Origin: Armatimonadota bacterium
GTDB taxonomy: Bacteria > Armatimonadota > Zipacnadia > JAUWAU01
NCBI GenBank assembly: GCA_030601885.1
Contig: JAUWAU010000001.1
Coordinates: 1 to 64,000, forward strand
Reading direction: 5' to 3'
Length of the DNA stretch: 64,000 bases
In this document: positions 32,002 to 55,909 of the stretch, piece after piece
Numbering within the stretch: the first letter of the stretch is position 1
How the letters are laid out: each line of letters begins with the position of its first letter
Notes under the pieces: generated by a model
Database searches by the model: none
Told to the model about the DNA's origin: nothing
Seen by the model: only the letters and a program-made list of their open reading frames with translations
Position numbers and translations under genes: made by a program

Positions 32002-32607
32002 GCAGTATGCAATTGGTAGGCCGTCAGTGACGGGAAGGCGCTACCGCGAAGATTTCGCCGGGATCTCTCCCCGAAACTCACCGGGTGCCGCAGCGCGGCA
32101 CGACACCTGCTCCACACCGTCTCCCCCGTTGGCCCCTGATGACTACGTCTGGTCACCCTGGTAGCGACGCGCTCAAGCACACGCTCGCACATGCCGAAAA
32201 GGCAGTTGCACTGGCGCAGCCACTGCCGCCGGGGTGGGGAGGGACTGTGGGCTTCGCGACGCGCCCCAGCTCGCAGTGAGCTGACGAGTGTGTGGACGGG
32301 CACGCGGAACCACAAGAGCCCGAAAGCACCCTCTCTCCCGAGGGCACATGGCGCACCGCCGCCTGCAGCACTTCGCGGCAGCGCCGCCGCGGCGCCCGTC
32401 CACGCCTTTCGACCCATCCCAACACCATGCCACATGTCAGTGATCAGTGCCCGGTAATCAGTGGTTAGTGTCGGCCAAGCGTCCCTGGGCCTCCGGCCGG
32501 GATGCGGCAGCTCGGTGAGTCCGTGGCCGCCCGTGCCCCGCATCGCGCGCTGGGCCGCACACCTGCGCAGCACCGATCCACTGACCACTGCGGCGGGGGA
32601 CCCGGCG

Positions 32608-39273: not shown

Positions 39274-39565
39274 TGGTGCTACACCTCGGTGGTTAGTTGT
39301 CAGTCGTCAGCAACCGCGGCCAGACCTCGGCCTAGCGCAGCCATCATCGGTTCCTGAGCACTCGTTTGTAGATTAGGTATTCGCAGGCATATGTCCTCTC
39401 TAGGCAGCGCAGTATCTGCGGCTACATTCGTAGGGCAGCAGCGCCCATTGGACCCGGTCCTCACGTATGATACAACCCGACGCGAGAAGGAGATGCCCGG
39501 CCGGCCGACGAACTGAGGGCCGGGTGCCACGGGTCGTAAGCTAGCGGTGCTCTTTCCGGCGGACG

Positions 39566-39588
39566 CACGGCTTGACGAGCAAGCCGTG
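39566..39588. repeat. Intergenic hairpin, family A copy 1
   Basis: CACGGCTTG-ACGAG-CAAGCCGTG. Confidence 0.6.
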
Positions 39589-39668
39589 GCACACGGCATT
39601 GTGGTGGCCGCGCCCACAACTGAGCACTAACCACTGACCACTATTCTCATCATAGGAGGGACATTATC

Positions 39669-45943: not shown

Positions 45944-46078
45944 GGGACTTCAGTGGTCGGCTCGGGGGCCGCAGGATCAATGGTTGATGGTTGATCGTTG
46001 ATGGTTAATGGACGGCAGGCCTCCACACAGTTAGCGCTGGCTCTTCTCCGCATCAACCATCCGCGCGGTGGCACGTGC

Positions 46079-53397: not shown

Positions 53398-54222
53398 ATG
53401 GAGTTCCCCACCACGAACATCGGCGGCATTGAGATCTCGCGGATGGTGTGTGGGTCCAACCCGTTCTTCGGCTTCTCGCACTTCACCGGGTCAAGGGACG
53501 CCTGGCTCAAGCGCTACTTCACCACCGAGCGGATCGTCGAAATTCTCCACACGTGCAGCGAGTGCGGGATCAACGCCGTGGTGAGCGGCACGGTGGAGCG
53601 GATGCACGAGGCCATCGTGAGCCTGGAGGAGCAGACCGGCTACCACTTCCACTGGTTCTGCACGCCGCAGGGGAAGTCGCTGCAGGACCTGCTCGAGAAC
53701 GCCAAATGGGCGGCGGATCACGGCGCCGAGTTCTGCATGCCGCACCAGAACTACACCGACAACCGCATGAATGTGGCCGAGCTGCGCATCGACGGCCTCA
53801 CGGAGTTCTGTGAGGCCGCGCGTGGCCTCGGGATGATCCCGGGCCTGAGCACGCACCGGCACGAGACCGTTCGCGTCGCCGACGAGGGCGGCTACGACAT
53901 CGCGACCTACATCCAGATCTACAACCCCATCGGCTTCCTCTGCCAGGTGGAGACCGACTGGGTGCAGCGGGTGATCAAGCGGGCGAAGAAGCCGGTGCTG
54001 TGCATCAAGCCGCTCGCCTCGGGCCGCGTGATACGGGCCACCGGGCTGCCGTTCGTGTACAAGACGATCAAGCCGGTGGACACGGTCGCGGTGGGCTTCC
54101 TGAGCCCGGAGGAAGTCGAGGAGGACGCCAAGATCGCGCTGAACGTGCTGGCCGACCTGGGGACGGAGGTGCCGTTGACGTATTCCAGGAGCAAGGAAGC
54201 ACTCGTCCGTAGTGGTCAGTGA
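53398..54222 (+). CDS. Hypothetical TIM-barrel-like protein
   Basis: Continuous ORF with GGAGGT upstream; ISRMVCGSNPFFGFSHF; IVEILHTCSECGINAVVSGTVERM; KKPVLCIKPLASGRV. Confidence 0.7.
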   Translation: MEFPTTNIGGIEISRMVCGSNPFFGFSHFTGSRDAWLKRYFTTERIVEILHTCSECGINAVVSGTVERMHEAIVSLEEQTGYHFHWFCTPQGKSLQDLLENAKWAADHGAEFCMPHQNYTDNRMNVAELRIDGLTEFCEAARGLGMIPGLSTHRHETVRVADEGGYDIATYIQIYNPIGFLCQVETDWVQRVIKRAKKPVLCIKPLASGRVIRATGLPFVYKTIKPVDTVAVGFLSPEEVEEDAKIALNVLADLGTEVPLTYSRSKEALVRSGQ

Positions 54223-54298
54223 TCAGTGGGCGGTGGGCAGTCCAACGCCGACCACCGCAGTGAGCAGTCGTCAGCGATCAGTTCCCAGTGCTGAGCGA
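54211..54298. repeat. Degenerate 7-nt repeat cluster, left of four-helix-bundle gene
   Basis: AGTGGTCAGTGATCAGTGGGCGGTGGGCAG ... GCAGTGAGCAGTCGTCAGCGATCAGTTCCCAGTG. Confidence 0.75.
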
Positions 54299-54646
54299 CC
54301 GGAGGGGGCCGTGGATCATCCGGCCCACCTCATTTGCCGCACCGCGCAGGCTGTCCATATGTTCTTCTTTCAGATACCCCAGGCGATGCGCTATCTCGAA
54401 GAATGTCTCCACTTCCGCGAGTGATCCCAGGGCGATAGACAGGAAGTTGCGGAACTCCGCCGTATGTCGCCGCGCTTGGCCCTCGGCAATGTTCGCAGGA
54501 ATCGACGTTGCCGCACGGCGCGTTTGGCTCGTCAGTCCGAATCGCTCGTGTTTGGGATACGTCTCTGTGTGCCGATAGATCGCCATCACCAGGTCCATCG
54601 CCTTGTTCCATACCTGCAGATCCTTGTATGTCTTCACTCGCGCCAT
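54278..54646 (-). CDS. Four-helix-bundle protein (23S rRNA IVS / Avd-like family)
   Basis: MARVKTYKDLQVWNKAMDLVMAIYRHTETYPKHERFGLTSQTRRAATSIPANIAEGQARRHTAEFRNFLSIALGSLAEVETFFEIAHRLGY. Confidence 0.94.
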   Translation of the reverse strand: MARVKTYKDLQVWNKAMDLVMAIYRHTETYPKHERFGLTSQTRRAATSIPANIAEGQARRHTAEFRNFLSIALGSLAEVETFFEIAHRLGYLKEEHMDSLRGAANEVGRMIHGPLRSLSTGN

Positions 54647-54684
54647 TGTCGCCACCCCTGTTTCGGTTAGGGAGCGCTCGGCTT

Positions 54685-54766
54685 TGACTACTGAGAACTG
54701 ATCACTGACGTACTTCCCCGCTGCCCACTGACCACCGGCCACTGACCACTATCGACCAGCCACTTG
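54685..54766. repeat. Degenerate 7-nt repeat cluster, right of four-helix-bundle gene, opposite sense
   Basis: ACTACTGAGAACTGATCACTGACG ... GCCCACTGACCACCGGCCACTGACCACTATCGACCAGCCACTTG. Confidence 0.75.
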
Positions 54767-55909
54767 CGCCAGAAGCTGCAGCGCCCCCTCCGTATAGATC
54801 GCTTCCGCCTCGGGCGCGCAGTGGGTGGTGCGGATCTCGTAGCCGCCCTCCGGGTAGCTGTCCGCTGTGGGCAGGTAACCGACGCTGCCGTTGCAGTAAC
54901 TCCACACGAGCGTGTTTGGGTGCATCGAGCGGCGCTTGATGTTGGCGCCGATCTCGGCGAATAGCTCCCCAGGGAAGGTCGCGACGGCCGTCTCCCCGAT
55001 CCGAAAAGCCCAAGTGGGGACGTCGATCACGCAGGGCTCCCCGTCCGCCACCTCTTCCTCCCGCCGGGGGACCTCGATGACACTGGACGTCACGGCGAGG
55101 TCGGCTGTCTGGCGCGGGCCGATGTCCTCAAGCACGCGCAGCACCTCCTCCCCCACCGGTTGACCCACCTCTTCCAGGTGCTCGGGCGTCGGCTCGACGC
55201 GATGCCGCGGGTCTACATTGCCGGAGCCGCCGGAAAGGAACATCGCCACGACGTCGTCCCCCATCGCCTGCTCAACGCGGTGGCAGGCGACGCCCATGTA
55301 GTCGGCGCTGATGATGTAATTCTTTGGCCCCAGCAGCGTGCCATGGCAGCCGTAGTTCCAGGCAACGGCGAGCGGAGCGCCGGACTCGTCCTCGACCCTG
55401 AATACGCCCAGCTCCCGGTCAACGAAACCGTCGGGGTTCGCGCCCAAGTCCGTCGTGCCGTCTTCTTTGTGCTCGCGGCGATTGACGCCGGCATCGGAGC
55501 TTCCGCTGTCGAAGGCGATGCGTGCCGGCCGCTTCCTGCGCTGGGCCAGGAGCGCGACATACGCCATCTTGTACTTGAACGCCTCGAGCCATTCTGCATT
55601 CACGTTCTCGCCCCGCGTGACCGGGCCCGAGTGCGTGTGCGTGGTCGCGAGCAGCACGTTCCCGGGATCGATACCTGTGGCCGCACCGATCAGCTCCCGC
55701 AGCTCGTCGTGGAGCTCCGTCGTAAGCAGGCACAGGTCGCAGGACGCGAGACAGATGGAGGTGGTGCCATCGTCGAGCATCAAGGCCCTGGCGAACAAGG
55801 GATCGTGGACGCCCTCGGACGGCTCGTCACGGGAGGCGTATCCGGCGAGATGCGCCGGCGACTTGGGGGTGATCTCTACTTTCGCGGCGCCTGCGGACAG
55901 CTCCGGCAT
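54749..55909 (-). CDS. Neutral/alkaline ceramidase-like family protein
   Basis: AGAAKVEITPKSPAHLAGYASRDEPSEGVHDPLFARALML; VLLATTHTHSGPVT; NYGCHGTLLGPKNYIISADYMGVACHRVE; FLSGGSGNVDPRHR. Confidence 0.85.
   Translation of the reverse strand: MPELSAGAAKVEITPKSPAHLAGYASRDEPSEGVHDPLFARALMLDDGTTSICLASCDLCLLTTELHDELRELIGAATGIDPGNVLLATTHTHSGPVTRGENVNAEWLEAFKYKMAYVALLAQRRKRPARIAFDSGSSDAGVNRREHKEDGTTDLGANPDGFVDRELGVFRVEDESGAPLAVAWNYGCHGTLLGPKNYIISADYMGVACHRVEQAMGDDVVAMFLSGGSGNVDPRHRVEPTPEHLEEVGQPVGEEVLRVLEDIGPRQTADLAVTSSVIEVPRREEEVADGEPCVIDVPTWAFRIGETAVATFPGELFAEIGANIKRRSMHPNTLVWSYCNGSVGYLPTADSYPEGGYEIRTTHCAPEAEAIYTEGALQLLAQVAGR

Follow-up and report, generated by a model that had tools for sequence, protein, structure and literature searches.

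A four-helix-bundle gene and the inverted heptad arrays around it probably form a small, widespread mobile element

In RAYT/REP (REPIN) systems, a single gene sits between short inverted repeats, which also occur scattered over the genome without it, and the presence of the gene tracks the abundance of the repeats. Intergenic repeats with a unit of seven nucleotides include the STRR of cyanobacteria. Other heptameric intergenic repeats are GGGNATC, a class that Rehm et al. present as quadruplex-forming (PMC4692102), and TAACTGA (PMC4679880). The four-helix-bundle family PF05635 comes from a different setting, the intervening sequences (IVS) in the 23S rRNA of Coxiella, Leptospira, and others, which are ~430 nt long and carry one open reading frame, S23, flanked by complementary ends that pair as a stem (PMC4990558). 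The rRNA IVS have long been suspected of mobility, for which that paper cites Burgin 1990 and Ralph and McClelland 1993. In addition, 18 PF05635-family genes have been reported in cas loci (PMC3936711), and Avd, the accessory protein of diversity-generating retroelements (DGRs), has a homologous four-helix-bundle fold (PMC10053308). Here, we describe a PF05635 gene in a 64,000-nucleotide stretch of the genome of an Armatimonadota bacterium, hereafter the window. We think it likely that this locus represents a small mobile element of wide occurrence, composed of a G-rich heptad array, one PF05635 gene, and a complementary C-rich array.

The gene (54278-54646, minus strand) encodes a protein of 122 aa. 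A preliminary description of the locus had called it an IVS-like four-helix-bundle gene, and the profile search bears this out, the protein matching PF05635 (23S_rRNA_IVP) with 141.8 bits (E = 1.1e-41) against a gathering score of 33.8, which places it in the family. Its relatives in the PDB include 2gsc (Xanthomonas XCC0516) and 2rld. The PF05635 protein has a known pentamer fold, and we know of no catalytic site in it. With the bAvd profile (PF22296), the window protein scores 26.1 bits, under the cut-off of 40. It matches no Pfam transposase, and the unit yielded neither a transposase nor a nuclease domain; PF05635 is the sole gene between the arrays, with no Y1 transposase there, and the unit contains no reverse transcriptase (RT) and neither a template repeat nor a variable repeat. 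The RVT_1 matches of the host genome (on contig C14 and at C82:277012) are more than 200 kb away from the gene, which therefore has no adjacent RT. The host genome (6.8 Mb) has two PF05635 genes in total, the window copy being one of them. This copy is not in 23S rRNA but between two protein genes, one for a 274-aa protein with no Pfam match on the left (53398-54222) and one for an alkaline ceramidase-like protein on the right (54749-55909); from Pfam annotation of the window locus, no functional link of either neighbor to the PF05635 gene is evident.

Inverted arrays of a degenerate heptad bracket this gene, as the preliminary description had claimed. The outer left array (54211-54241, minus strand; profile score 36-37, period-7 score 14) is of the AGTGGTC type on the plus strand, where it reads AGTGGTCAGTGATCAGTGGGCGGTGGGCAGT, and has its C-rich sense on the gene strand. 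The inner left array (54258-54302, minus strand; profile score 32) is more degenerate and runs across the 3' end of the PF05635 gene, stop codon included, so that the final residues of the protein are encoded by the repeat. On the other side are the inner right array (54685-54709, plus strand; profile score 30.6), of the ACTGATC type and reading TGACTACTGAGAACTGATCACTGAC on the plus strand, and the outer right array (54721-54764, plus strand; profile score 42), which is of the CTGACCA type and begins CTGCCCACTGACCACCGGCCACTGACCACT on the plus strand; the right-side heptad is the left-side heptad in opposite sense. The heptad profile scores 32-51 on the window arrays, far above the maximum of 18 in Markov-shuffled windows. 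The stop codons of the convergent neighbors, likewise as described earlier, lie within array sequence, at 54220-54222 in the outer left array and at 54749-54751 in the outer right one. A mirrored order of units in the left and right arms was considered and found no support beyond the shared heptad.

When the RNA of the window unit is folded in silico, the arrays close into a basal stem (z = -4.1) in which the outer left array pairs with the outer right one, and the unit at L227 is likewise predicted to close into one long hairpin (z = -8.1). The window element is thus like a 23S rRNA IVS in encoding a PF05635 protein and in having ends that enclose the gene and close a predicted stem. It is unlike an IVS in lying outside 23S rRNA, in having tandem heptad arrays as its ends, and in having the gene-less relatives, dispersed arrays, and empty sites between protein genes that are presented below. 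Unlike an insertion sequence (IS), the unit has no recognizable transposase, and it departs from Avd/DGR systems, with which it shares the fold of the protein, by its lack of an RT, template repeat, and variable repeat and by its bAvd score.

The arrangement recurs in homologues. We surveyed the host and 60 relatives, 61 genomes in all, found PF05635 in 35 of them with up to eight copies each, and analyzed 74 PF05635 genes, detecting period-7 arrays de novo without assuming any heptad sequence. Arrays occur within 300 bp of the gene in 47% of cases upstream and 45% downstream, compared with 3.5% and 3.2% for 375 long ORFs taken from these loci as controls; period 7 is specific, the figures for other periods being 0-12%. 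Upstream and downstream flanks match each other in inverted sense (local score of at least 16) for 71% of the 74 genes and in direct sense for 3%, the inverted figure falling to 0.8% for pairs made of flanks from different genomes. A second sample consisted of 80 loci from named genomes, a nonrandom set made up of the top-scoring matches to the query, and it spans Bacteroidetes, Proteobacteria, Acidobacteria, Planctomycetes, Chloroflexi, Clostridia, Spirochaetes, and Methanophagales. There, period-7 arrays lie within 300-350 bp of 62% of the genes upstream and 41% downstream, and 63% have inverted flank matches, as against 3.6%, 5.7%, and 0.3%, respectively, for 333 control ORFs. Compared with true intergenic flanks, those of control ORFs are richer in coding sequence; cross-paired flanks are free of that bias, and inverted matches among such mismatched pairs amount to 0.8-1.2% over both samples. 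Across ~150 homologues from many phyla of bacteria, and in archaea, array pairs therefore bracket most PF05635 copies. Both expectations raised by the preliminary description hold: inverted repeats flank the majority of copies (63-71%), and heptads are far denser at PF05635 genes than at control genes. Polarity is fixed, with a G-rich array upstream (80:5) and a C-rich one downstream (66:7), and the heptad sequence varies from copy to copy while period and polarity stay constant.

Several loci have features of their own. Many copies without period 7 have, by eye, inverted arrays of 8-, 9-, or ~12-bp units (L033, L034, L035, L055, L083, L016, and L154), so that even the period can differ among copies. 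Extremely long inverted arrays flank the gene in a Planctomycetota (L103) and a Terriglobia (L165) genome, with inverted-repeat alignment scores of 155-160, and in Chloroploca (L094), a 31-bp C-rich heptad array is repeated many times in the same sense, ~99 bp apart, as a higher-order tandem. No rRNA was found in 23 other PF05635 loci scanned with Rfam. The interval between tRNA-Ser and the large SRP RNA holds a PF05635 copy in several families of the class to which the host belongs (L016, L019, L082, L083, and L010; genomes G004, G019, G022, G023, G030, and G036), and these copies are old and long-lived; in the host itself, the tRNA-Ser/SRP RNA pair has no PF05635 copy, the gap being 89 bp.

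Sites with and without the element could be compared at seven places, all on cyanobacterial plasmids and between neighboring genes, with flanks 85-98% identical. Site S1, in a conjugation-gene operon, contains the element in Trichormus variabilis and Scytonema and lacks it in Nostoc linckia, Tolypothrix, and N. carneum (flanks ~97% identical); the insert, array-gene-array, measures 428 bp and went into a 13-bp intergenic gap, and the copy in Nostoc C052 is decayed. S2 is occupied in N. edaphicum and Nostoc C052 and empty in two Nostoc C057 plasmids, with Nostoc ATCC 53789 (L233) having inverted GGGAAC-type arrays without a gene at the same place. S3 is occupied in two Calothrix plasmids and empty in three others. 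At S4, between nrdB and nrdA, N. edaphicum is occupied and Calothrix empty (85% identity), and at S5, between cas10 and cmr3 of a type III-B CRISPR operon, Picosynechococcus PCC 7003 is occupied (L261:1192-1548) and PCC 7002 empty. S6 and S7 are adjacent junctions of one three-gene operon, each with a different element, and one of the junctions is a TAATG overlap. Apart from the gene-less L233 at S2, empty sites are array-free. At these seven plasmid sites, which do not include that of the window, arrays and gene enter jointly into gaps between adjacent genes. For a single site, precise deletion of an old insertion would give the same picture, but at S1, S3, S6, and S7, the array-free state is the commoner one. 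Possible target duplications are GTAAT(T/A)AA at S1, TTCTA at S7, and ~3-5 bp at S6, with 0-1 bp or no clear one elsewhere; no uniform target-site duplication was found over the seven sites. The unit is usually ~0.4-0.6 kb long, and the plasmid inserts are ~0.4-0.5 kb. The suggestion in the preliminary description that the locus is a mobile unit, for which empty sites were to be sought in other genomes, is thus upheld by relatives, and the window's own locus has no empty counterpart.

Movement can be recent. On two plasmids, the S2 elements agree at 470 of 473 positions (99.4%), compared with 83% and 93% identity for the flanks, and an element more similar than its flanks implies that it moved recently. 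Array length changes too, the S1 arrays of Trichormus and Scytonema (L224 and L228) differing by exactly two heptads. The PF05635 gene is under purifying selection: dN/dS (Nei-Gojobori) is ~0.12 between L224 and L267 and ~0.19 between the two host copies, which shows that the protein is kept by selection. Units without a gene also occur. In Nostoc N6 (L268:391-955), the four-helix gene is broken by a gene-less unit of ~200 bp, which has TCAGGAG/TCAGAAT heptads as in the interrupted copy, inverted around a noncoding core that looks hairpin-capable. It is strongly suggested that gene-less array pairs derived from such units also spread and add to the dispersed heptads of carriers, much as REPs stand to RAYT genes.

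The host has such dispersed heptads. On its one contig that was mapped, the heptad of the window gene forms 27 arrays in 416 kb compared with 2 in a Markov control, and the PF05635 gene is the site of the densest cluster. Two gene-less inverted pairs lie in the window. The first, a candidate nonautonomous unit, has arms at 39286-39310 (minus strand; profile score 28) and 39616-39642 (plus strand; 35), and no gene was recognized by eye in the ~300 bp between them (39286-39642). The second is weaker, with a left arm at 32436-32470 (minus strand; 42) and a short right arm at 32578-32590 (plus strand), whose score of 20 barely exceeds the shuffle maximum of 18. The second PF05635 copy of the host (contig C38) has another heptad, AGTCATT/AGTCAAT, again in opposite sense left and right of the gene. 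An array of yet another type (ATGGTTG), unlike the CTGACCA class, is seen at 45980-46011 of the window, and one similar to it at C82:168748.

Arrays elsewhere in a genome are closer to that genome's own gene-flanking heptad than the arrays of other genomes are (Wilcoxon p = 5e-4). In Lysobacteraceae, where the upstream flank of the gene commonly consists of GGGATTC/GGGAATC/GGGACTC heptads, we counted exact GGGANTC x3 matches in 150 genomes and found a median of 48 in the 65 PF05635 carriers versus 0 in the 85 noncarriers. At least 10 matches are present in 45/65 carriers and 10/85 noncarriers (p = 2.6e-13, uncorrected for phylogeny). In ten heptad-rich genomes of this family, the PF05635 profile found no match; the bAvd profile was silent in heptad-rich noncarriers, and silent in the control as well. 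Lysobacteraceae copies often have the upstream array alone (the downstream array is present in 17%), and these copies may be domesticated or immobilized; upstream-only examples are L281, L283-L286, L288-L290, L300, and L305-L308. The flanking repeats of the element are thus like those of RAYT/REP in being dispersed without the gene and in going with its presence, as seen in the 27 arrays of the host contig and the phylogenetically uncorrected Lysobacteraceae counts. They differ in being tandem 7-mers specific to each copy, REPs being single palindromes, and the gene encodes a four-helix bundle instead of a Y1 transposase. With the known heptameric repeats, they share period 7, a G-rich strand, and intergenic location, and the GGGNATC class itself flanks the gene in Lysobacteraceae; those repeats, in contrast, are described as repeats alone, with no source gene or element proposed in the passages and abstracts consulted (PMC4692102, PMC4679880).

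Y1/RAYT genes were considered as owners of the heptads and rejected, most of the 20 tested having no heptad flanks. The Y1_Tnp loci of genome G000 and relatives (L241-L260) mostly have inverted flanks without period 7, with scores up to 65; at one of them, L245, a period-7 array (CGAATTT) lies upstream.

Could the arrays be mere RNA structure or regulation around a conserved, vertically inherited accessory gene that does not move? The significant basal stem and the long-lived tRNA-Ser/SRP RNA copies of several families would fit, but occupied and empty sites with near-identical flanks, an S2 element more alike than its surroundings, different elements in successive junctions of one operon (S6/S7), and genomes with multiple divergent copies make this very improbable. 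We find it just as improbable that the gene inserts into preexisting heptad arrays, which would then be a target outside the element. Although arrays are dispersed in carrier genomes and gene-less pairs exist, including L233 at S2, empty sites other than L233 are array-free, and a direct array serving as target would leave the same sense on both sides of the gene, when the observed sense is inverted.

Two further explanations accept mobility and assign it to other enzymes. Y1 enzymes act on single-strand hairpins, and the unit might be passive cargo: a Y1 transposase, RAYT or IS200-like, would recognize the hairpins and mobilize the unit in trans, with the four-helix protein as helper or passenger. 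Y1_Tnp is found in 30/35 carriers versus 17/26 noncarriers (p = 0.07), and heptad arrays are weakly associated with Y1 (p = 0.01). The association of heptads with PF05635 is much stronger, Y1 being by far the weaker predictor of Lysobacteraceae arrays (p = 0.01), and it persists in genomes without detected Y1 (53% versus 6%). Since, moreover, Y1 genes are rarely heptad-flanked (20 tested), array-bracketed copies exist in genomes with no Y1 detected (G002 and G025), and the PF05635 gene is under purifying selection, we regard this explanation as unlikely. Decidedly unlikely, too, is a retroelement, in which RNase III would cut out the hairpin RNA as it does for the 23S IVS, and the RNA would be reverse-transcribed with an Avd-like cofactor and inserted. 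That RNase III excises rRNA IVS (PMC4990558), that the Avd and PF05635 folds are related (PMC10053308), and that the unit is predicted to fold as one hairpin all speak for it. Against it, RVT_1 (PF00078 alone was searched, and many genomes are incomplete) was detected in 12/35 carriers and 5/26 noncarriers (p = 0.25), which leaves a requirement for an RT unsupported, and multicopy genomes such as G019, G031, and G021 have no detected RVT_1. Together with the bAvd score of the window protein, under the cut-off (26.1 versus 40), these counts also leave unsupported the link to Avd and DGRs drawn in the preliminary description.

We instead favor a model in which the four-helix protein would bind either the heptad strand or the hairpin into which the arrays pair. 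Recognizing its own heptads as a single-strand hairpin, it would recruit host enzymes and direct them to copy or insert the unit. Copying would more likely take place at the DNA level, because RT is undetected in most carriers, and the arrays could then lengthen or shorten through slippage in 7-bp steps. A broader proposal, which we judge about equally likely to be right or wrong, is that PF05635 genes constitute a new class of transposase-less mobile element with inverted tandem heptad ends, free in sequence and fixed in period and polarity. Its protein, either unaided or helped by host enzymes that are ubiquitous, would copy hairpins with heptad ends. Dispersed heptads of bacteria would be its gene-less offspring and the 23S rRNA IVS its rRNA-resident copies.

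In the open-access literature, most subscription journals and preprints being outside the scope of the search, we found no report linking PF05635 to heptad repeats or describing such elements outside rRNA. The gene family and the repeats were each known already; what appears to be new is the element uniting the two, along with its ends and the demonstration that it inserts. It lacks the defining features of an IVS (location in 23S rRNA), of IS and RAYT (a transposase), and of a DGR (an RT); with the rRNA IVS taken as the type of the class, it would count as a variant of IVS. Conversely, 23S rRNA IVS may be the rRNA-resident form of the element.

For bacterial heptameric repeats (STRR, GGGNATC, and TAACTGA), hitherto without a known origin, the element provides a likely source gene, and the S23 ("four helix bundle protein") family, abundant but of no known function, becomes tied to heptads as parts of one mobile element. 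PF05635 genes in cas operons (PMC3936711), or those counted as Avd-like (PMC10053308), may be mere insertions, a warning that for cas-associated copies comes from the PCC 7003 copy between cas10 and cmr3, which is absent in its sister strain PCC 7002. Both the origin of the heptads and the function of the S23 family thereby become directly testable.
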